Shown piece after piece: positions 3,856 through 14,679 of a stretch of DNA of 64,000 bases (position 1 is its first letter; each line of letters opens with the position of its first letter). Location of the stretch: NCBI RefSeq assembly GCF_900199375.1, contig NZ_LT900217.1, positions 3,162,001 to 3,226,000 on the forward strand, given 5' to 3'. The translations under genes were made by a program, and so were the position numbers. Origin of the DNA: Gordonibacter urolithinfaciens (GTDB lineage: Bacteria; Actinomycetota; Coriobacteriia; Coriobacteriales; Eggerthellaceae). Below the pieces are notes generated by a model. It did not search any database, was not told the DNA's origin, and worked only from the letters and a program-made list of their open reading frames with translations.

Positions 3856-3883
3856 ATCCATGACCGAAATACGCGGCAAAAGG

Positions 3884-3894
3884 TGTGGTAGAAT
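3884..3894 (+). promoter_or_regulatory. Candidate promoter (-10) of the LuxR/ATPase regulator gene
   Basis: TAGAAT at 3889-3894 resembles the -10 boxes before other genes in this window (for example TAGAAT at 16279). No convincing -35 box is seen. If used, transcription would start near 3901, downstream of the ATG at 3860, which favours the ATG at 4019 as the true start. Confidence 0.45.
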
Positions 3895-4018
3895 CCTGAA
3901 AAAAGGTTCGGGTAAAGACGAACGGCCTTTCCGCCGCTATGAAGCGAACACCCGGCATGTCGGGGAAAGCCGGTGGGAAACGCAGGGTTTGCACGAAGGA
4001 GTCAGCGAGGCTCGGCTT

Positions 4019-6733
4019 ATGGAGAACCTTTCCGCATTGCGAACGGATCCCGGCGTATTCCCCTCGACGAAGCTCCGCGCCCCGCGCCTTCCCAACCGCC
4101 TCTACCCGCTTGGCGAGCTTTACGAGCTGGTGGAAAGGGCCTTAGACAAGAACTCGCTCATCCTCGCGGCCCCTGCCGGCTGCGGCAAGACCTCGCTCGT
4201 CGCCGCCTGGGAAAGGCATGCGAGGCAGTCCGAGGACGGTACGCCGACGAGCGTCTCGTGGGTCAGGCTCGATGCCGACGACAGCGATTACGCGCGGTTC
4301 TGCAGCCTGCTCCTTGCCGGTTTGGAGGCTTTCGTCCCGGACGTGCGGCAGCAGTTTTGCGAGGTGCTGGGGGACGGCGGGCCGGATGCGGTTCCGGGCG
4401 CCCTGGTAGTCGCCATCGAACGTGCCGGCCTGCCGGCGGCTTGCGGCAGGAACGTGCTCGTACTCGACAACTTCGAGGCTGCGAGCAACGGCCCGGTCGA
4501 CCGCCTCGTCAGCTATCTCATCGCCTACATGCCGGCCGGGTACAAGCTCGTTGTGTGCAGCCAGGAAGCGCCCTCTCTCTCAGCAGCGAGCCCGGTCCCG
4601 GATTTCGACGACATGGCCGCGCTCGTCACTGCGGAGCAGCTCGTGCTGGACGATAAGGCGGCCGCGGGGTTCCTCCGTTCCTCTCTCGGGGAGGAGGCAG
4701 GGGTGCCCGAGAGCATCCTCGGCTCGGCGGTCCGGGCGGCCGGCGGTCGGCTTCCGGCCTTGAACGTGGCTGCGCGCTGCCTTGCCGAGGCGCGGCCCCG
4801 CATGGACGAGGTTCCCGATTCTGCTGCATGCGGCCGGCTCTCGCTGCTGGACGAGCTCTTGGCGGCGCTCTCCGAACGGGAGCGGGACCTTCTGGTGAAA
4901 ACGTCCTTCCTCGACTTAGTGAGCCCGCCGCTTTGCGACGATGTCCTTGAAGCCGAGGGGTGCGACGGCGTCCTGGCGTCGATCGCGGCGAAAACCGGCG
5001 TCCTCGTGACGGTGGACGGCAAGAGGCGCTGGTACAAGGCGCAGAGCCCTTGGCCGCATTACCTGCAATCGAAGTTCAGGAAGCTCGATCGCGCCGAGGT
5101 GAGGGGGCTGTGCAAGAGGGCCAGCGCCTACCTGAAGAACCATAACCATGTGGGGCAGGCGATCGACTGCCTGTGCAAAGCGGCCCTTTGGGACGAGCTC
5201 GAAGACCTGGTCGGCGAGCATCACCTCTCGCTCATGTTCGACAACCGCTTCGACGTGTTCGGCGAGGTGCTCTCGAAGCTGCCGCGTCACGTCCTCGAAT
5301 CATCCCCGAAGCTGAGCATAGCCCAGGCATGGGTGCTCGCCAAGGCCGGCTCGGTCGAGGAGTCCGTACGCTTCGTGAAGATGTCGGAAAGCCTTACCGA
5401 TGCGGATTCCCCCGATGCTTCCCAGCTTAAGGCGGAACGCTTGGCCGTGCTATCCCTTTGCTGCGGTCACAGCGGCGACATCCGGGCGGGGAAGGATATG
5501 GTGGCCGAGCTTCTAAGCTGCGGCCAGGGCGACCCGGGAGTGCTCGCCAGCCTGGTGTACAACGCGGCGGGGTGCATCGTGGCGAGGGAGAAGGAGCCCG
5601 CAAGGGTAGTCGATTACCTCGAAAACTGCTTGGAGGTAGCCGCGGGCCAGGGTAACAGGCCCGCATGCTCGGTGCTTTGCTATTTCGCAGCGCGACAGCG
5701 CATCGATGCGGGGGACTTGCGGAGTGCCGAGAAGACTGCTTGGAGGGCAAGGGACGGCCTCGGCTTCTCCAGCATGGACGAGCTCGAGGTCCTCCCCGAG
5801 GTGATAGAGGCGACGGTCATGCGGAAAAGAGGGGAGTTCGCACGCGCCGAGGAGGCTTACTCCCGCTGTCTCGGCTCTCTCGGCCCCTCTTCGGGGATCG
5901 AGTTTTTCGCCGAGGCGGGGTGCGGCCTCGCCTTGGCGCTGCGCGCGCAGGGCAGGATGGGGGAGGCCGCCGACACGGCCCGCTCGATCCTGCAGCTCTG
6001 CGACAGGAGCCATGCGGAGCGGCCGCGGCTGATAGCCCTCGTGTACCTGGCGATGATCGAGATAGACGCCGGGAACATCGACCAGGCCGCCGACCATGTT
6101 CGGGCGCTGAGGGGCGCGAACCCCGCCTCGGCGGATCTTATCGGCGACCTGATCGCGCTCGCCCTTGCGCGCTTCCGCTTCGCGAGCGGCCAGGTGGAGG
6201 AGGCGGGGAAATCCCTCGACCGGCTTGCCGGGGCGTTCGAGGAGAGCGGGCGCTACGGGCTCCTCCTTTCCGCGCTCGTCGCCAAGGGCATGGTCCTCTA
6301 CGCCCAGGGCCTGCAGGGGCCTTCCTCGCATGCGGTCTTGCGCGCCTTGGAGCTGGCCCGGGACACCGGCGAGATAGAGGCGTTCGTCAACGAGGGGTTC
6401 TCCATGACGCGCCTGCTCGGGGGGATGCGCGAAAGGAGGCTCGTGGGCGACGGCCTGGACGCCCTTGCGCAGAGGATAACGCAGGAGATCGCCGAGCTGA
6501 ACATCCCGGAGCCCGCATGGCGCCTCGAACGGCGCGACGGCAGCCCCCTGACGGCACGCGAGCGCGAGGTCTGCGAGCTGCTCGCCCTCGGCTACAGCAA
6601 CCGGCAGATCGCCGAGAGCCTGTGCGTGTCCATCAACACCGTCGACACGCACCGCAAGAGGATATACCTGAAGCTGGGCGTAAACAACCGGAAGGACCTG
6701 GTCGAGAAGATCGGTGCAGCGGGGGGACGGTGA
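4019..6733 (+). CDS. Large LuxR-family regulator with N-terminal STAND-type ATPase (MalT-like)
   Basis: About 904 residues from the ATG at 4019. Near residues 50-59 there is a Walker A motif (APAGCGKTS) and near 150 a Walker B-like stretch (NVLVLDNFE), giving a STAND ATPase like MalT. The middle is helical and probably TPR-like, and the last 60 residues are a LuxR helix-turn-helix (LTAREREVCELLALGYSNRQIAESL). Such proteins switch on ATP and ligand binding and activate transcription. It follows the molybdoenzyme operon on the same strand behind a terminator, so it may control it, though no operator was identified. An in-frame ATG at 3860 would add 53 residues but lies before the likely promoter. 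Confidence 0.85.
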   Translation: MENLSALRTDPGVFPSTKLRAPRLPNRLYPLGELYELVERALDKNSLILAAPAGCGKTSLVAAWERHARQSEDGTPTSVSWVRLDADDSDYARFCSLLLAGLEAFVPDVRQQFCEVLGDGGPDAVPGALVVAIERAGLPAACGRNVLVLDNFEAASNGPVDRLVSYLIAYMPAGYKLVVCSQEAPSLSAASPVPDFDDMAALVTAEQLVLDDKAAAGFLRSSLGEEAGVPESILGSAVRAAGGRLPALNVAARCLAEARPRMDEVPDSAACGRLSLLDELLAALSERERDLLVKTSFLDLVSPPLCDDVLEAEGCDGVLASIAAKTGVLVTVDGKRRWYKAQSPWPHYLQSKFRKLDRAEVRGLCKRASAYLKNHNHVGQAIDCLCKAALWDELEDLVGEHHLSLMFDNRFDVFGEVLSKLPRHVLESSPKLSIAQAWVLAKAGSVEESVRFVKMSESLTDADSPDASQLKAERLAVLSLCCGHSGDIRAGKDMVAELLSCGQGDPGVLASLVYNAAGCIVAREKEPARVVDYLENCLEVAAGQGNRPACSVLCYFAARQRIDAGDLRSAEKTAWRARDGLGFSSMDELEVLPEVIEATVMRKRGEFARAEEAYSRCLGSLGPSSGIEFFAEAGCGLALALRAQGRMGEAADTARSILQLCDRSHAERPRLIALVYLAMIEIDAGNIDQAADHVRALRGANPASADLIGDLIALALARFRFASGQVEEAGKSLDRLAGAFEESGRYGLLLSALVAKGMVLYAQGLQGPSSHAVLRALELARDTGEIEAFVNEGFSMTRLLGGMRERRLVGDGLDALAQRITQEIAELNIPEPAWRLERRDGSPLTAREREVCELLALGYSNRQIAESLCVSINTVDTHRKRIYLKLGVNNRKDLVEKIGAAGGR

Positions 6734-6785: not shown

Positions 6786-6814
6786 TTTACCTGCCCGCGT
6801 GCTCGTGCGACAAT
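6786..6814 (+). promoter_or_regulatory. Promoter of first EamA-GNAT gene
   Basis: TTTACC (6786-6791), a 17-base spacer and GACAAT (6809-6814), followed by GCGCTG. The same boxes, spacing and following bases stand before the second EamA-GNAT gene, which strongly suggests a real promoter copied with the gene. It predicts about 50 bases of leader before the GTG at 6871. Confidence 0.75.
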
Positions 6815-6870
6815 GCGCTGCGGCCTTTTCCGGCCGGGAATCCAGCGGACAACGAGGGGAGCGGGTGCAG

Positions 6871-8421
6871 GTGACAGAGGCGGCAGGGGCTCCGGCGGGA
6901 GGCCGGCATATGGCGCGCGGCATCGTGTGCGCGCTGGCGGGCGGGGTGTGCTGGGGCTTCTCGGGCACCTGCGCGCAGCTGCTCATGAACGACTACGGCG
7001 CGCCGGCGGAGTGGATCACCTGCGTGCGCATGGTCATCGCCGCCGTGTTCTTCCTGTTCCTAACCGCAGTGCGCGACTGGCGCGACCTCGTGGCCGTGTT
7101 TCGCGACCGCCGCTCGCTCGTGCAGATCGCGCTGTTCGCCGTCTTCGGCGTGCTGCTCACCCAGATGAGCTACCTGAACGCCATCAGGTACACGAGCGCC
7201 GGCGTGGGCACCACCATCGAGCAGATCGGCCTCGTGCTCATCATGCTCTACGTGTGCGTGCGCGCCCGGCGCCTGCCGCGCGTGCGGGAGGCGCTGGGGC
7301 TCGCGTGCGCCCTGGGCGGCATGCTGCTCATCGCCACGCAGGGCGAGATCGACCAGCTGGCCATCCCGCCCGAGGGGCTGGGATGGGGGCTCGTGTCGGC
7401 CGTGGCGCTGGCCTTCTACACGCTCATGCCCGTGCGCGTGCTGAAGAAATGGGGCGCCATGCTGGTCACGGGGCTGGCCATGCTGTTCGGCGGCTCGGCG
7501 GCGTCGGCCGTCGTGCAGCCGTGGGCCGTTCCGGTGCAGCTTTCGGGCGGCGCACTGGCGGCGCTCGTGGCCATCGTGCTCGTGGGCACGCTGGGCGCCT
7601 ACATGCTGTACCTGCAGGGCGTGGCCGACGCCGGCCCGGTGAAGGCCAGCCTGCTGTGCTGCGTCGAGCCGGTGTCGGCCATGGTGCTGGCCCTGTTCTG
7701 GCTGCATACGCCCGTGTCGGTGTGGGACCTGGCGGGCTGCGGCCTCATTGTGGCCATGATCTTCCTCGTGACCGAACGGGAGAAGAAGCCGCGGGCCGCA
7801 GACGGAGTCGCGGAGCCGATTGCCGCCGGCATGGTCGCCTACGACGATCCGCCGCTGTTCGCCGGCCGCGCCTCGGTGCTGGGCTACTACACGAGCCGTC
7901 CCGCCGTGCGCGAGGACTTCGACCAGGTGTCGGCCCTGCTCGATGCCGGGCACGAGACGTTCGCCGCGCTCGGCATCGACGAGGGGCGCAAGAAGTACCC
8001 CTCGGCGCGCCGCCTCATGCACAGCATAAAGAACGGCACGACGCACGTGGTGGAGGACGCGCATGGGCATATGATAGCCGTGTTCGCCGTGTCGTTCTCG
8101 CCCGACAAGAACTATGCGGCGGGCATCGACGGCGCCTGGCTCACCGACACGGACGAACAGCCCCAACCCTACGCCGAACTGCACTGGGTTTCGGTGGCGC
8201 CCGCGGCGCGGCGGCGCGGCGTGGGTCAGTTCATCCTGGAGACGGCGGGCCGCATCGCGCGCGCAGGCGGGCGCCGGAGCATCCGCGCCGACGTGTACGA
8301 GCGGAACGTGCCCATCCAGAAGCTCTTGGAGAAGCACGGCTATGCGCGCTGCGGCATCCTCTCCATGAGGGACGTGTTCGGCCGCCGGAAAACCCGGGTG
8401 GCCTACGAGCGCCTTCTGTAG
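6871..8421 (+). CDS. EamA-family transporter fused to a C-terminal GNAT acetyltransferase (copy 1)
   Basis: About 516 residues. Residues ~14-300 form ten hydrophobic segments with the two EamA/DMT repeats (WGFSGTCAQL, then GYMLYLQG-type second repeat); members export or import small metabolites. Residues ~335-516 are a GNAT domain whose acetyl-CoA loop reads RRRGVGQFIL. The two parts are joined in one uninterrupted frame. GTG at 6871 was chosen because GAGGGGAG precedes it and because it gives the same leader length and N-terminus as the paralogue at 8574; ATG at 6910 is the alternative. The fusion suggests acetylation coupled to transport, for example of an amino acid or antibiotic, but no substrate can be named. 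Confidence 0.85.
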   Translation: MTEAAGAPAGGRHMARGIVCALAGGVCWGFSGTCAQLLMNDYGAPAEWITCVRMVIAAVFFLFLTAVRDWRDLVAVFRDRRSLVQIALFAVFGVLLTQMSYLNAIRYTSAGVGTTIEQIGLVLIMLYVCVRARRLPRVREALGLACALGGMLLIATQGEIDQLAIPPEGLGWGLVSAVALAFYTLMPVRVLKKWGAMLVTGLAMLFGGSAASAVVQPWAVPVQLSGGALAALVAIVLVGTLGAYMLYLQGVADAGPVKASLLCCVEPVSAMVLALFWLHTPVSVWDLAGCGLIVAMIFLVTEREKKPRAADGVAEPIAAGMVAYDDPPLFAGRASVLGYYTSRPAVREDFDQVSALLDAGHETFAALGIDEGRKKYPSARRLMHSIKNGTTHVVEDAHGHMIAVFAVSFSPDKNYAAGIDGAWLTDTDEQPQPYAELHWVSVAPAARRRGVGQFILETAGRIARAGGRRSIRADVYERNVPIQKLLEKHGYARCGILSMRDVFGRRKTRVAYERLL

Positions 8422-8488
8422 GCAAGGGCCGTCTGCGCCCGGTTTTGGGCGCATGATCAAAAACGACGCAAAAGGCTCGCCAAACCTC

Positions 8489-8517
8489 TTTACCGTGGTG
8501 GGCTTCCGTGGGACAAT
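8489..8517 (+). promoter_or_regulatory. Promoter of second EamA-GNAT gene
   Basis: TTTACC (8489-8494), 17-base spacer, GACAAT (8512-8517), then GCGCTG. It matches the promoter at 6786-6814 in both boxes, the spacing and the start region, and lies 57 bases before the ATG at 8574. Confidence 0.75.
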
Positions 8518-8573
8518 GCGCTGATGGATGCAAGGGGGGCAAAGCCCCGCGAGACAAGGAGAGGGGGAGGGCC

Positions 8574-10154
8574 ATGGTCGGTCAGGCGGCAATCGCGCAG
8601 GCGGCGCCCAGGAAAAGCCATGTGGCACGCGGCATCGCGTTCGCGGCGCTCGGTGGCATCTGCTGGGGGTTCTCGGGAACCTGCGCCCAGCTCATGACGA
8701 GCGAGCTCGGGGTGCCGGTGGCGTGGATCACCTGCGTGCGCCTGCTGCTGGGAGCCCTCATCTTCCTCGTGGCGTGCCTCTTCAAGAACTGGCGCAGCCT
8801 GCGCGCCGTGCTGCGCGACAAGCGCTCGCTGCTCCGTATCGCGGCCTTCTCGATGTTCGGCGTGCTGCTCACCCAGATGAGCTACCTGTCGGCCATCTCC
8901 TACACGAATGCGGGCACGGGTACCGTGCTGGAACGCCTTGGACTCGTGGTCATCATGTTCATCGTGTGCGTGCGCGTGCGGCGCTGGCCGAAGCCGCGCG
9001 AGCTGTTCGGCCTCGTGTTCGCCCTGGGCGGCACGTTCCTCATCGCCACGAAGGGCAACATCGGAGCGCTCGCCATACCGGCCGAGGGGCTCATGTGGGG
9101 CGTCGTGTCGGCATTCGCGCTGGCGGCCTACACGCTGCTTCCCGGCAAGGTGCTGGCGAAGTGGGGCAGCTTCATCGTCACGGGCCTGGCCATGCTCCTG
9201 GGGGGCACGGTGGCCACCGTGTTCGTGCAGCCGTGGAGCATCCCCGTGGACATCACGCCCGAGCTCGTGGGCGTCATGGGTGCCATGGTGATCATCGGCA
9301 CGTTCGCCGCGTACCTGTTTTACCTGCAGGGCATCACCGATGCCGGCCCGGTGCGTGCCGGTCTCGTGGGCTGCGTCGAGCCGGTGTCGGCAACGGTCAT
9401 CTCGGCCGTGTGGCTGGGCACGCCCGTCACGCCGGTGGACGTGGCGGGCATCGCCATGATCGTGGTCATGGTGCTCTTGGTGACGCAGCGCGAGGAGGCG
9501 CCCGCGAAGGGCGAGGGCGGCCTGGACGGCTCGCCCGACGACCTGCCGCCCTTCGAGGGACGCGCCTCGCTTCTGGGCTATTATCGCTCCCGTCCTGCCA
9601 CGCACGACGACTTCGTGCGCTTCCAGGAGGTGCTGGAAGACGGCCACGAGGCGCTGGCCGCCTTGGGCATCGAGGAGAAGGGGTCGAAGAAGTACCCCTC
9701 CGAGCGCCGCGTCATGCGCGCCATCGACTGGGGCACCGCCCATGTGGTCACGGTGCCCGAGCGCACCGGCGACGAGGAGGCCGGCGGCGAGCGCATCATC
9801 GGCGTGTTTGCCGTCGACCCGCGCGGAGACGAGGCCTATGGCCGTTCCTCGGGCGCGGACTGGCTCACCGAGTCTGCCGAGCCTCCTGCCGGGGAGGCCC
9901 CGTATGCGGCCCTGCACTGGGTGTGCGTGGCATCGGAGGCGCGCCGCCGCGGCGTGGGCATGTTCATCCTGGGCGAGGCCGAGCGCCTCGCGAAGGCTGC
10001 CGGCAAGCGCAGCCTTCGCTGCGATGTGTACGAGGGCAACGAGCCCATGCGCGCGCTGCTCATGGAGTACGGCTTCTCGTCCTGCGGCACCGCTGTCCTG
10101 CGCGACCGCCTGGGCCGCGAGAGACGCCGCGCCGCGTTCGAGCGCCTGTGGTGA
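8574..10154 (+). CDS. EamA-family transporter fused to a C-terminal GNAT acetyltransferase (copy 2)
   Basis: A 526-residue paralogue of the preceding gene with the same order: EamA repeats (residues ~20-305, starting GGICWGFSGTCAQLM) and a GNAT domain (~340-526) with acetyl-CoA loop RRRGVGMFIL. The ATG at 8574 follows GAGGGGGAGG. The acetyltransferase half has an insertion near ERTGDEEAGGE that copy 1 lacks, so the two have diverged after duplication. Each copy has its own promoter, so they can be expressed separately. Substrate unknown. Confidence 0.85.
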   Translation: MVGQAAIAQAAPRKSHVARGIAFAALGGICWGFSGTCAQLMTSELGVPVAWITCVRLLLGALIFLVACLFKNWRSLRAVLRDKRSLLRIAAFSMFGVLLTQMSYLSAISYTNAGTGTVLERLGLVVIMFIVCVRVRRWPKPRELFGLVFALGGTFLIATKGNIGALAIPAEGLMWGVVSAFALAAYTLLPGKVLAKWGSFIVTGLAMLLGGTVATVFVQPWSIPVDITPELVGVMGAMVIIGTFAAYLFYLQGITDAGPVRAGLVGCVEPVSATVISAVWLGTPVTPVDVAGIAMIVVMVLLVTQREEAPAKGEGGLDGSPDDLPPFEGRASLLGYYRSRPATHDDFVRFQEVLEDGHEALAALGIEEKGSKKYPSERRVMRAIDWGTAHVVTVPERTGDEEAGGERIIGVFAVDPRGDEAYGRSSGADWLTESAEPPAGEAPYAALHWVCVASEARRRGVGMFILGEAERLAKAAGKRSLRCDVYEGNEPMRALLMEYGFSSCGTAVLRDRLGRERRRAAFERLW

Positions 10155-10270
10155 AGGCGGGCGGCCCCGCCGGCCGTGCAATCCTCTGACCGCGCCCCAA
10201 GGCGCCCCTGCGACCTGCGGGTCGACGCTTTGTTTCGAACGGCTCCTTTGAGAAGAAAGAGAACATCCCC

Positions 10271-10804
10271 GTGCAATTCCGCTCAACCCGCGCGTCGGAC
10301 GTCGACCGCATCATGGACATCCTCGCCGACGGCCGGCGCGCGCTCGCCGAGCTCGGCATCGACCAGTGGCAGGGCGGGTACCCGCATCGCGAGGCTATCG
10401 AAGCCGATCGTGCACGCGGAGAGTCCTACGTCGTGGTCGGCGACGAAGGCGACGTCGTGGCCACGGCTATGGTGGGCTTCTCGGGCGAACGCGACTACGA
10501 CCTGATCGATCGGGGCTCATGGCTCACCAACACGCGCTCGGATGATGCGTGCTACGGCGTGGTGCACCGCGTGGCGGTCTCGGCCTCGTGCAAGGGGCGC
10601 GGCGCCGCCTCGTTCTTGCTGGCCTGCGCCGAGGAGCTGACGCGCGACCGAGGATGCGAGAGCGTGCGCATCGACACGCATCCTGGCAACCTGCCCATGC
10701 GCCGTTTGCTGGAGAAGAGCGGCTACGCCGAATGCGGCGTCATCTACATCGCGCATGCCGAAGCGGGCACGCCCGAGCGCATCGCCTACGAGAAGCTGGT
10801 GTAG
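10271..10804 (+). CDS. Stand-alone GNAT-family N-acetyltransferase
   Basis: 177 residues, one GNAT domain with the acetyl-CoA loop CKGRGAASFLL near residue 110 and a C-terminal segment ending RIAYEKLV. Its start (RSTRASDVDRIMDILADGRRALAELGI) and end resemble the GNAT halves of the two fusion proteins upstream (SRPA..DF....L..GHEALAALGI; RVAYERLL), so it may be their free-standing relative. GTG at 10271 is preceded by a weak AAGAAAGAG site. Substrate unknown. Confidence 0.8.
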   Translation: MQFRSTRASDVDRIMDILADGRRALAELGIDQWQGGYPHREAIEADRARGESYVVVGDEGDVVATAMVGFSGERDYDLIDRGSWLTNTRSDDACYGVVHRVAVSASCKGRGAASFLLACAEELTRDRGCESVRIDTHPGNLPMRRLLEKSGYAECGVIYIAHAEAGTPERIAYEKLV

Positions 10805-10932
10805 ACCGGGTGAGCGGTCGCGCCGTCATCCCTTGCAGCGCCCGCGTCGGCGGGAGCGCGTAGCTGTCGAAATTCTGTCGGTTGCCCATCTGGGGGACGG
10901 CCTCAATGCGGCACGGTATAATGCTGAGCATT

Positions 10933-11766
10933 ATGTCGGTGAAATCTCGCGAGAAAATAGCGCTCTTCGTGTTCCTGGTCCTTATCGTCCTTAGCCTGTG
11001 CGGCTTGGGATGGTACCTGGTGGCAGGGCACTCTTGGAACGTGGCGGCATCGAACCTGGATGACACGTTCGGAAGCATGGACGGCTACACCGCCATCGTG
11101 TACCCGGGGACTGCCGTCGAACCGGTGGCCGGGAAGGGTGCGGGGGATGCGGCTGCGGAGGACGATGCGGTTGGGGACGCGGCCGACGGCAAGGAATCGG
11201 CCGAAGGCGCGGCTGCCGGCAAGGAGGCCGATGCCGGCTCGCCGGATGCCCCGGGGTCGTCCGGCGGCAAAGACGCCACCGGCACGGCAGGGACCGCGTC
11301 CGTCCCGGGAACGGATGCCGGGGAGAGCCTGCTCGGCTCGAAGAAGAAGACGCTCAGCGCCCAGGAGGCAAAGGAAGGCTACGAGGAGAAGGGCGCCACG
11401 GTGTTCTCGCTCGACACGGTCGACCTCGACGCGTACCGCGAGGGCGTCATCCTGAAGAAGGGCGGGCACCGCTTCGGCGTTTTCGGCATCGCCGAGCCCA
11501 CGTCCACCATCGTGCTGGAGAAGCAGATCGCCTACTTCAAGCGCCACAAGGTCGATTTCATCGTGCTCGTCACGCCCGACAAGGAGTACGCCGAGGACGT
11601 CTCGGGCATCGACATCGTGGTGTCCACCCAGGACGAGGACCTGTTCGTCATGGGCGAGACCATCGACGGCACGTTCTACGTGGACGCCCCGGCCGTCGGC
11701 TCGGTGGGCGCCATCCTCATATCCCCCAGCAACGTCGTGTCCGCCAAGGTGCTGCAGGCCTCGTAG
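10933..11766 (+). CDS. Membrane-anchored protein with a degenerate metallophosphoesterase-like domain
   Basis: About 277 residues. A single hydrophobic segment near residues 8-30 anchors it with most of the chain outside. An Ala/Gly/Asp-rich low-complexity linker follows (~residues 70-140). The C-terminal half (KKGGHRFGVFGIAEPTS.., HKVDFIVLVTP.., GIDIVVSTQDED, VDAPAVGSVGAILIS) has the strand order of the UshA/CapA phosphoesterase fold, but the histidines expected in the VLSH and GGHSH positions are absent, so metal catalysis is unlikely. This assignment is by eye. A TATAAT at 10917-10922 lies just before ATG 10933; ATG 10906 with GGGGGA upstream is the alternative start. Confidence 0.6.
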   Translation: MSVKSREKIALFVFLVLIVLSLCGLGWYLVAGHSWNVAASNLDDTFGSMDGYTAIVYPGTAVEPVAGKGAGDAAAEDDAVGDAADGKESAEGAAAGKEADAGSPDAPGSSGGKDATGTAGTASVPGTDAGESLLGSKKKTLSAQEAKEGYEEKGATVFSLDTVDLDAYREGVILKKGGHRFGVFGIAEPTSTIVLEKQIAYFKRHKVDFIVLVTPDKEYAEDVSGIDIVVSTQDEDLFVMGETIDGTFYVDAPAVGSVGAILISPSNVVSAKVLQAS

Positions 11767-11915: not shown

Positions 11916-13351
11916 ATGGCGGGCGAGGCGGGCAACGGGCAGGGGGCCTCCAGGTTCTCGTACAAGCAGATGGCGCTCTACGGTGTCATGCTGGCCGTTG
12001 TCTCCGTCATGGTGGTGTTCGCCTTCGGAGCGTTCATGGCGGTCTCCGACATGCGTCACGAGGCGGACGTGTCGATCGCGGCGGCCCTTCCCCGCGTGGA
12101 GGGGCGCATTGACGAGACGTTCAAGCTGCTCGAGACGCTCGCGGAGAGCGAGACGCTCTATGATCCCGACGTCGACGTAATGGAGAAGGTAGATTTCGTC
12201 GACAAGGTAAACGAGCATTTCGGGTTCTTCCTGCTCTGCTATGTGGACGCCGACATCAACGTGTGGGACGCAACGGGACCTGCCAGCCTGGCCAGCCGCT
12301 CGCACATGCAGCGCGTGTACTCCACCGGCGAGCGCTACGTCACCGACAGCTTCGTGGCGGGCGCCGACGGCACCACCCTCAACTACACCGTGATCGTGCC
12401 GTTGCGCGACGGGCAGGGTGCCATGCCACGTCGGGGCACGTGTACGACGATCCCTTTCTCGAGCCCATCCGCGATTCCATCGCCTTCGGCATGACCGCCG
12501 ACGTCGTGCAAAGCGAGCTTCTGGACCTGAACCCGGTGGCGTTCTGGACCGTGGACGGCCTCGATGTGCGCTACTACACTGCCTCTCCCGTGGCGGGTAC
12601 CGAGTGGGACGTCGTGAGCGTGGCAGGGTTCTGGGACGCGTATGCCAAGGTCATGCGCGTCATCTTCCCGCTGGCCATCGTGGCGGTGGCAGTCATCGCG
12701 GCGGCCTTCCTGCTTATGCAGCGCCCCTTCGCGCGCCAGATGAAGAAGGCGCGCCTTTTGGAGAAGTCGGTTGCCGAGCTGCAGAAGAAGGTCTACAGCG
12801 ACGGACCCGCCGACAGCGGCTTCGCCGACCTCATCGAGCTCACCTCATCGGGGCTTTCCGACGGCCTGACCGGCACGGTGACGCGCTCGGTGTTCACGAG
12901 CCGGCTGGCGAACGCGCTGGACGGCGCCGGCGACGGCATCTACGTGCTCTGCTTCATCGATATCGATGACTTCAAGGGCATCAACGACACGTTCGGCCAC
13001 GCAACCGGAGACATGGCGCTCAAAGCCGTGGGCTTCCTGCTGCGCGAGTTCGAGCGCCGCTACGACGGATTGGTCGGCCGCTACGGGGGAGGCGAGTTCA
13101 CCTTGCTCATGACCGACTTCGACGACGAGGCCGAACTGCGACGCGTCCTCGACGAGCTCACCGAGCGCCTGCACGTGGATATCCGGGCTGGAAGCGCCTC
13201 GTTCGCGGTGCACTGCAGCATGGGCGCGTCGGTGTGGGATCGCCAGGTGGACGCCGACGAGCTCTTGGAGCAGGCGGATCGTGCGCTGTACCTTGTCAAG
13301 CAGCGTGGCAAAGAAGGCTACTGCGTCTACCAGGACGAGGAGTGGTCATGA
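11916..13351 (+). pseudogene. GGDEF-domain membrane receptor disrupted by a frameshift
   Basis: Two overlapping frames together make one protein of about 478 residues. The first (from ATG 11916, AAGGAG upstream) has a membrane segment and extracellular sensor region up to about 12425; the rest, in the -1 frame (readable from about 12430 to 13351), has a second membrane segment (VIFPLAIVAVAVIAAAFLL) and a GGDEF domain (DIDDFKGINDTFGHATGD). A missing base near 12428-12430 would restore ..GHVYDDPFLEP. The signature reads RYGGGEF in place of GG(D/E)EF, so activity was probably weak or lost even before the break. Whether the shift is real or a sequencing error cannot be decided here. Confidence 0.75.
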
Positions 13352-14679
13352 GGCGTTCGGCGTGGCGAGGGGGCTTCGGATTCGCGTTGCTCTCCCTCGC
13401 GGCGGTCGCGCTGTGCGCCGCGCTCGGCATGGCCGTCTACAACGAGGTGAAGGACATTCGCCGGACCGATGCCGACAACCTGCTCGCCTCATTCCAGCAG
13501 ACCATCGAGTTGAAGCTGAAGGGCGGCTTGGGCGAGACGGGCGATTTGGTGGCCGCCCTCGAGGTCGATCCTTCCGACGAGGCATGGTTGCCCGCTGCTG
13601 CGGATGCCCTCCTCGCGCGCGACGAGGTGGTCGGCGTTCTCTACGTGGTGGACGATACGATGCGCTACGCGTTTCCTGAAAGCGACTTCGGCAACATGGT
13701 GGGGCGCGACCTCTCCCAGTTCACCTACGTGTTCACCTTGGCGAAGTATACCGACGGCTTCGTCGTGGAGGGGCCGGTCACGCTTGAGAACGGCGTTGAG
13801 TCGTTCGTGTTCGTGGAACCCGTCGATGTCGACGGCGCGTACCATGGCGAGGTTGCGGTGGCCCTCAAGGCGGATTTCGTCATCGAGCAGCTCGACCTTT
13901 CCCTGCTCGAGCAGGGCGGCTACCTCTACGAGCTGTGGGCGGTAAGCCCCCAGGACGGTCGCAAGGACGTCATCGCCGTTTCGGACGGGGGGCACGATTT
14001 CTCCCATGCGGCGAAAGCGACCTTCGGCATGCCCTCCGAATGGACGCTGTCCGTCATGCCGGCCGACGGCTGGGTTCCGGGCCTCTGGACGGCGGCCATC
14101 GTGGCCGTGGCGACCGCAATCTCGCTCCTTTTAGTCGGCCTTATGTTCCTCGGTGAACGGACGAGGCGGATGGAACGATGCGTCGAACGGGCGAAGCGCA
14201 CCGATCAGGAGACGGGCATGTACAACTTCGACGGCTTCGTTGAGATGCTCGAGAAAGAAAGGCTCGGCCCCGATTCGCCGCTCACGCTCATCTGCGCGAC
14301 GGTGGACGATTTCGAGGAAACGTCCATCGCAATGGGCCGGGACGCGCGACAGGAGTATCTTGGCAAAGTGCTCGGGGAGATAGACGCGGCGGTGCGCGGC
14401 AACCAGGTGGGCGCACGGGTGGGCTGCGGAACCTTCGCCGTCGCCATCCGCGGGCGGGTGGGCAAGCAGGTGCTCGTGGACACGATGCGCTCGCTCGAGC
14501 TCGCCCTCATGTGGAAGGTGCGCGCGGGCGACCGCAAGGCGTTCTGCCGCGCACGTTCGGCAGCTGTGTACTATCCCGAGGACGGCGACGACCTCGTGGC
14601 GCTCTTGGAGCGGACGATCAAGCTGCTCGATCGCGACAAGCCCGAGGGGTTCGGCTCCAATCGCAGGCGCCGGAAGTAG
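13348..14679 (+). CDS. Membrane sensor protein with degenerate GGDEF-like C-terminal domain
   Basis: 443 residues. Membrane segments near residues 9-29 and 247-271 flank an extracellular domain of about 210 residues (possibly Cache-like; I do not recognise it firmly). The C-terminal part has the layout of a GGDEF domain (TDQETGMYNFDGFVEMLE), but the signature position reads RVGCGTFAVA, so it should not make cyclic di-GMP. It could bind a nucleotide or regulate its neighbour. The start overlaps the end of the frameshifted receptor (ATGA), so the two were cotranslated. A bidirectional terminator follows. Confidence 0.75.
   Translation: MRRSAWRGGFGFALLSLAAVALCAALGMAVYNEVKDIRRTDADNLLASFQQTIELKLKGGLGETGDLVAALEVDPSDEAWLPAAADALLARDEVVGVLYVVDDTMRYAFPESDFGNMVGRDLSQFTYVFTLAKYTDGFVVEGPVTLENGVESFVFVEPVDVDGAYHGEVAVALKADFVIEQLDLSLLEQGGYLYELWAVSPQDGRKDVIAVSDGGHDFSHAAKATFGMPSEWTLSVMPADGWVPGLWTAAIVAVATAISLLLVGLMFLGERTRRMERCVERAKRTDQETGMYNFDGFVEMLEKERLGPDSPLTLICATVDDFEETSIAMGRDARQEYLGKVLGEIDAAVRGNQVGARVGCGTFAVAIRGRVGKQVLVDTMRSLELALMWKVRAGDRKAFCRARSAAVYYPEDGDDLVALLERTIKLLDRDKPEGFGSNRRRRK

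Follow-up and report, generated by a model that had tools for sequence, protein, structure and literature searches.

A 64,000-nucleotide stretch of the Gordonibacter urolithinfaciens genome (contig NZ_LT900217.1, positions 3,162,001 to 3,226,000 of the forward strand; hereafter "the window," with positions counted from its first nucleotide) carries two adjacent genes, A and B, each of which joins an EamA transporter domain to a GNAT domain in one chain. A free GNAT gene, C, follows them. Both domains are already well known; what is new is that single-chain fusions of the two form a conserved tandem under a conserved promoter of its own. We propose that A and B acetylate a small amine or amino acid in the cytosol and couple this to export, with the paralogues serving related substrates, and give this proposal about an even chance of being right.

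Domain make-up of the fused proteins

The cassette had been placed at 6786–10804 by an earlier reading of the same sequence (below, the original prediction), and these coordinates were found to be right. Gene A (plus strand, 6871–8421) encodes 516 amino acids from a GTG start, and gene B (plus strand, 8574–10154) encodes 526 amino acids from an ATG start. Each is an uninterrupted frame in which Pfam recognizes both domains, in agreement with the predicted pair of single-chain EamA-GNAT genes. The EamA domain (PF00892) was found in two stretches of each protein, with E values of 9e-32 for A and 8e-33 for B (110.6 and 114 bits against a gathering score of 28.2). The Acetyltransf_1 domain (PF00583) was found with E values of 3e-8 in A, 4e-7 in B, and 8e-13 in C (34.3, 30.8, and 49.2 bits, respectively, against a gathering threshold of 20.7). 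The EamA halves span 6871–7806 in A and 8574–9527 in B, and the GNAT halves span 7858–8418 and 9549–10151. Gene C (plus strand, 10271–10804), a free GNAT of the GIDQWQ-GYP type related to 2pc1 and 3h4q, is the conserved third member of the cassette. A and B share 57% identity across their EamA halves and 55% across their GNAT halves, and C is 33 to 35% identical to the fused GNAT halves. Since orthologues of gene A keep GTG-(GCN)-GA(A/G), which reads GTG-ACA-GAG at 6871 in the window, and a later ATG at 6910 is not kept (it is CTG in the relatives at loci L067 and L069), the GTG at 6871 is the likely start.

Ten hydrophobic segments with positive-inside loops are present in both A and B, and the AlphaFold model of B (m490e706cfc32) has ten helices. 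Because the positive loops lie on the same side as the termini, this pattern puts both predicted termini, and hence the GNAT half, in the cytosol, the site of acetyl-CoA. In fold comparisons, the EamA half of B matched 5i20, which we take to be the exporter YddG, with a Z score of 19.0, and the choline importer LicB (7b0k) with a Z score of 20.0. Since the two matches are about equal, the fold leaves the direction of transport undecided. LicB being among the best solved matches, the transporter half might instead import an amine or amino acid, which the tethered GNAT would trap or detoxify by acetylation on entry. However, the exporter matches in a tie or near-tie, and the characterized members of the corresponding transporter group, 2.A.7.3 of the Transporter Classification (TC), are mostly exporters; we therefore consider import unlikely.

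The GNAT halves are maintained by selection. When the window was compared to two other Gordonibacter, the ratio of nonsynonymous to synonymous substitution rates (dN/dS) was 0.17 to 0.18 for the GNAT half of A and 0.19 to 0.22 for that of B. The corresponding values were 0.10 to 0.13 and 0.09 for the EamA halves of A and B and 0.20 to 0.25 for gene C. The GNAT halves are thus under purifying selection and are not decaying tails. Their acetyl-CoA pyrophosphate loop, (R/Q)xxGx(G/A), is RRRGVG in both A and B. Orthologues show little or no variation in this loop or in the YPS, LHWV, N-x-P, and CG motifs; the loop of C is KGRGAA, with K in first place. Features common to the fused GNATs and C (YP, GxWLT-like, β4 His, N-x-P, and CG) are largely kept, and the DQWQ-GYP of C is replaced by DEGxKKYPS in A and a similar motif in B. 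In the model of B, the GNAT half (residues 329 to 526) is well predicted; its closest solved relative is 2pc1 (Z score of 20.4, root mean square deviation of 2.3, 168 aligned), and it also matches acetyl-CoA–bound 3f0a (Z score of 17.9). The original prediction had staked its reading on an acetyl-CoA pocket in the GNAT halves; motif and fold are intact, so it stands on this point. Taken together, these features point to the fused GNAT halves as predicted working enzymes with altered specificity.

The same features bear on a different role of the GNAT half, that of a regulatory domain which, by acetylating the transporter or sensing acetyl-CoA, would gate the export of an unmodified amino acid. 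A fusion would set the stoichiometry and position of such a regulator, the conserved acetyl-CoA motif fits regulation equally well, and unmodified amino acids are the usual cargo of EamA exporters. Nevertheless, residues beyond the cofactor loop that are shared with C (YP, GxWLT, β4 His, and CG) are kept, suggesting catalysis on a molecule, and no drug/metabolite transporter (DMT) gated by a GNAT domain is known to us. We regard this role as quite improbable.

None of the NCBIfam equivalog models reaches its curated cut-off for A, B, or C. The best NCBIfam match of the EamA halves is TIGR00950 (carboxylate/amino acid/amine transporter), with scores of 101 to 103; because these fall short of the cut-off of 230, its function is not transferable to A and B. 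No match to A, B, or C was found among the PADLOC models of anti-phage defense, and a defense role for the cassette was rejected on this basis.

Distribution and age of the cassette

The original prediction had proposed searching for EamA-GNAT fusions and their gene neighborhood across genomes. We surveyed samples of 138 Eggerthellaceae, 398 Coriobacteriia, and 396 Actinomycetota genomes, and the uniqueness of the architecture is judged within these. At least one full fusion was found in 39 of the 138 Eggerthellaceae genomes, in 14 of 48 genera (our count; genera are denoted below by g and a number). With the fusion present in 39 genomes at ~50 to 97% identity, a frame or sequencing artifact was rejected. 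Gordonibacter pamelaeae 7-10-1-b is the closest named record (97% for B), followed by two other Gordonibacter (91%), and a single scan of genome contigs returned Gordonibacter matches only. Among the matches listed outside Eggerthellaceae, the EamA half or a separate GNAT gene was matched, never both halves in one match. Among 87 matching plasmid-borne records, none covered 80% of A.

Genes A and B are adjacent in 16 genomes (g1, g5, g6, g22, g25, g31, and g37), and both are fused in 13 of these; gene A of G. pamelaeae 7-10-1-b is interrupted by a run of N in the assembly. An A-type fusion occurs alone in g13, g40, and, judging by tree position, probably g17. Only a B-type fusion is found in g2 and g41 and, at low support, in g7. 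In g36, both types are present in one genome at separate loci. The A-B-C order is kept in five genera (g1, g6, g22, g25, and g37), and among the loci read A-B is usually followed by C and then by the gene at 10882–11766.

In trees of the EamA half and of the GNAT half, the latter a quick search version, A orthologues and B orthologues form groups of their own that predate the genera. Gene C lies in a clade separate from all fused GNATs, with a support of 100 in the Shimodaira-Hasegawa–like approximate likelihood ratio test (SH-aLRT). Because the A and B groups are older than the genera and C stands apart, the order of events was fusion, then duplication, then long common inheritance. A recent local duplication is rejected by both trees and synteny: The duplication noted in the original prediction is a conserved feature of the family. 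Its view that the second copy is diverging holds, since identity between Gordonibacter and g22 is ~69% for B compared to ~81 to 82% for A, indicating that B diverged faster. Likewise, a free GNAT does follow the fusions as described, but it belongs to its own clade and is no fusion fragment; the idea that C is a GNAT detached from B is unsupported by the quick tree.

Two lineages have a B gene reduced to its transporter. In Candidatus Gordonibacter avicola, gene B (L004:6001-7587) stops just past the EamA half, with its promoter kept and C directly following; this is a metagenome-assembled genome, in which an assembly error is possible. In g5, gene B is EamA alone. The EamA-only B is directly followed by gene C in Ca. 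G. avicola and in one g5 genome; in the second g5 genome, the contig ends. Since C directly follows in these cases, the arrangement hints, weakly, that C may stand in for the lost GNAT half of B.

The surroundings of the cassette vary. The product of the gene at 10882–11766 matches no Pfam family and is predicted to be anchored in the membrane by its N terminus. In most genera, this gene is conserved 3′ of the cassette, and its relatives also adjoin some EamA-only relatives. Directly upstream of A is a large, MalT-like LuxR gene (3860–6733). Among the loci read, only the window and the Ca. G. avicola locus have it (56% identity); as it is not conserved, it is probably not the regulator of the cassette. 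Of the loci read, only those of Gordonibacter have two adjacent GGDEF genes (12263–14679) next to the cassette, the second with a domain just below the Pfam cut-off.

A conserved predicted promoter before each fusion gene

Each fusion gene is preceded by a copy of the same predicted promoter. That of gene A (plus strand, 6786–6820) consists of a −35 element TTTACC (6786–6791), an extended −10 TGC (6806–6808), a −10 element GACAAT (6809–6814), and GCGCTG (6815–6820). That of gene B (plus strand, 8489–8523) has TTTACC (8489–8494), TGG (8509–8511), GACAAT (8512–8517), and GCGCTG (8518–8523). In the window, TTTACC-N(15-19)-GACAATGCGCTG has exactly two copies, at 6786 and 8489, both with a spacing of N17, against 0 expected from shuffling. 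The entire 3.29-Mb genome likewise contains just two copies of TTTACC-N(16-18)-GACAAT, those preceding A and B. Both leaders are ~50 nucleotides (nt) long, assuming a start site ~7 nt past the −10 element and, for gene A, the start at 6871. The original prediction had assigned both fusions a TTTACC-N17 promoter and a leader of about 50 bases, just as found here. No Rfam RNA or riboswitch was found in the leaders of A and B.

The looser grammar TTTACC-N14-TGNNANNNT has only three sites in the genome, which counts against reading the element as a common housekeeping sequence. The third site, TTTACC-N14-TGC-TACACT-GCC (G000:C1:2354778-2354806, minus strand, locus L106), precedes a DUF2201 VWA-like/metallopeptidase-like gene; near-identical sites of this DUF2201 type recur across several Eggerthellaceae genera.

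In the 138 Eggerthellaceae genomes, TTTACC-N17-GACAAT has 29 sites, 25 of which are at the cassette locus or before the A-like gene of g36; the reversed pattern has 7. The promoter is kept before A orthologues in g1, g6, g13, g22, g25, and g37, as well as before the A-like gene of g36, and before B orthologues in g1, g6, g22, and g37. The duplication has thus left both copies with the promoter, as originally predicted. For A and B orthologues, 27 promoters were aligned, and several positions that played no part in selecting them are fixed or nearly so. The extended −10 TG is present in 27 of 27. A C directly 5′ of TTTACC is also present in all 27 and the C of TGC in 25, and downstream of GACAAT, a G is found in 25 and a C in 27. 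The spacer and leader are mostly variable.

More divergent forms were also seen. Genus g2 has remnants of the promoter (TTTACG-N17-CACAAT or CAAAAT), gene A of g31 is preceded by TTTACC-N17-GACTAT, and TGCGACAATGC is retained 5′ of the A genes in g37 and g5. A probable promoter built on this grammar, TTTACG-N17-GAAAAT with TGC (TTTACG-N14-TGC-GAAAAT), precedes the free GNAT gene C of g5 (L055:8728-9411). Among the EamA-only relatives read in Eggerthellaceae, the A/B-type promoter is absent, except before the EamA-only B of Ca. G. avicola.

With a hexamer spacing of 17 nt and TGn before the −10 element, the A and B promoters fit the definition of a σ70 extended −10 promoter (16 to 18 nt). They escape a stricter consensus scan that demands 9 of 12 matches, and the hexamers are accordingly far from consensus. 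Because the pattern TTGAC...TGNTANNNTG gave just two matches in the genome, consensus searches leave the acting σ factor unsettled. Judged by its sequence, the element is best read not as a private operator but as a conserved σ70 promoter of the extended −10 type whose hexamers are weak; the additional fixed positions leave room for a regulator.

A compatible but doubtful addition is that the element also contains the site of a dedicated regulator with few targets. Positions outside the hexamers are fixed (C at 1 and 4 bases before TTTACC, CG before TGC, and GC after GACAAT), and sites of the TTTACC-N14-TGNNANNNT kind are limited to three in the genome. Yet the σ70 extended −10 promoter with 17-nt spacing accounts for most of the conservation, the third site precedes an unrelated DUF2201 gene, and no regulator is conserved next to the cassette, the LuxR gene being found at two of the loci read.

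Proposed function and relation to known systems

In the mechanism that we propose, A and B would be bifunctional membrane proteins of the EamA (DMT) family. The transporter half would cross the membrane ten times with its N and C termini in the cytosol, and the C-terminal GNAT half, at the cytosolic face, would acetylate a small amine or amino acid with cytosolic acetyl-CoA. The acetylated product would then be expelled by the tethered exporter, so that acetylation and export take place in one chain. A and B would derive from a gene that was already a fusion when it duplicated long ago, and they probably act on related but different substrates; that these are "related compounds," as originally suggested, is plausible. 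Gene C, inherited along with them, would encode a cytosolic acetylating enzyme that belongs to the same broad family. Since each of A and B would be driven by its own copy of the TTTACC-N14-TGC-GACAAT-GC promoter, the two are expected to be co-expressed.

Coupled acetylation and export is the most economical reading of the fold, the motif, the topology, and the export role of EamA relatives. Among the characterized EamA relatives are exporters of O-acetylserine/cysteine, of aromatic amino acids, of C3 amino acids, and of lysine (PMC11005379, PMC9048822). Several observations weigh against it. EamA-fold proteins can also import, as LicB does. The EamA half of the B model is of low confidence, with block values of the predicted local distance difference test (pLDDT) mostly at 38 to 70. 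Last, the GNAT half of B appears dispensable in Ca. G. avicola and g5. A broader version, which we put forward only tentatively, is a family-wide acetylate-and-export device of gut Eggerthellaceae in which the GNAT would hand its product directly to EamA, the paralogues and C would cover related amines or amino acids, and the near-private promoter would tie the fusions together.

Among known systems, the EamA/YddG exporters (DMT superfamily, TC 2.A.7.3) resemble A and B in having two EamA repeats, ten helices, and a fold match to 5i20, but are ~300 amino acids long and carry no enzyme, whereas A and B carry a fused GNAT. Free EamA proteins of other Coriobacteriia are ~35 to 46% identical to the EamA half, with no GNAT in the match. 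GNATs of the 2pc1/3h4q type (GIDQWQ-GYP) are relatives of C by sequence (2pc1, E value of 2e-19) and of the fused GNATs by profile and fold; the fused GNATs differ in forming a clade of their own and in carrying DEGxKKYPS, or a similar motif, where these have DQWQ-GYP. The PDB titles of 2pc1 and 3h4q state no function. In Pseudomonas aeruginosa, the PA2576-PA2577-PA2578 locus has an EamA gene near a GNAT gene (PA2576/PA2578); the genes are separate, divergently transcribed, and accompanied by an Lrp/AsnC regulator, and the authors link them to stress response, e.g., to polymyxin B (PMC8707732). The neighborhood of EamA and GNAT is alike, but the Pseudomonas pair is neither fused nor tandem. 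In the titles and abstracts of the open literature, we found no description of an EamA-GNAT tandem or fusion, and no open literature linking Eggerthella with EamA was found. The original prediction knew of no described system of this form, which agrees with the literature searched and with the absence of an NCBIfam equivalog.

Genes for transporters and modifying enzymes are often neighbors, and a conserved single-chain transporter-acetyltransferase would provide a clean test of coupled modification and export. The near-private promoter makes co-expression of the A/B pair directly testable. Gut bacteria of the Gordonibacter and Eggerthella groups are known for drug and polyphenol metabolism, and since these are the hosts of the cassette, its substrate might be an amine from the diet or the host, or else an amino acid end product.

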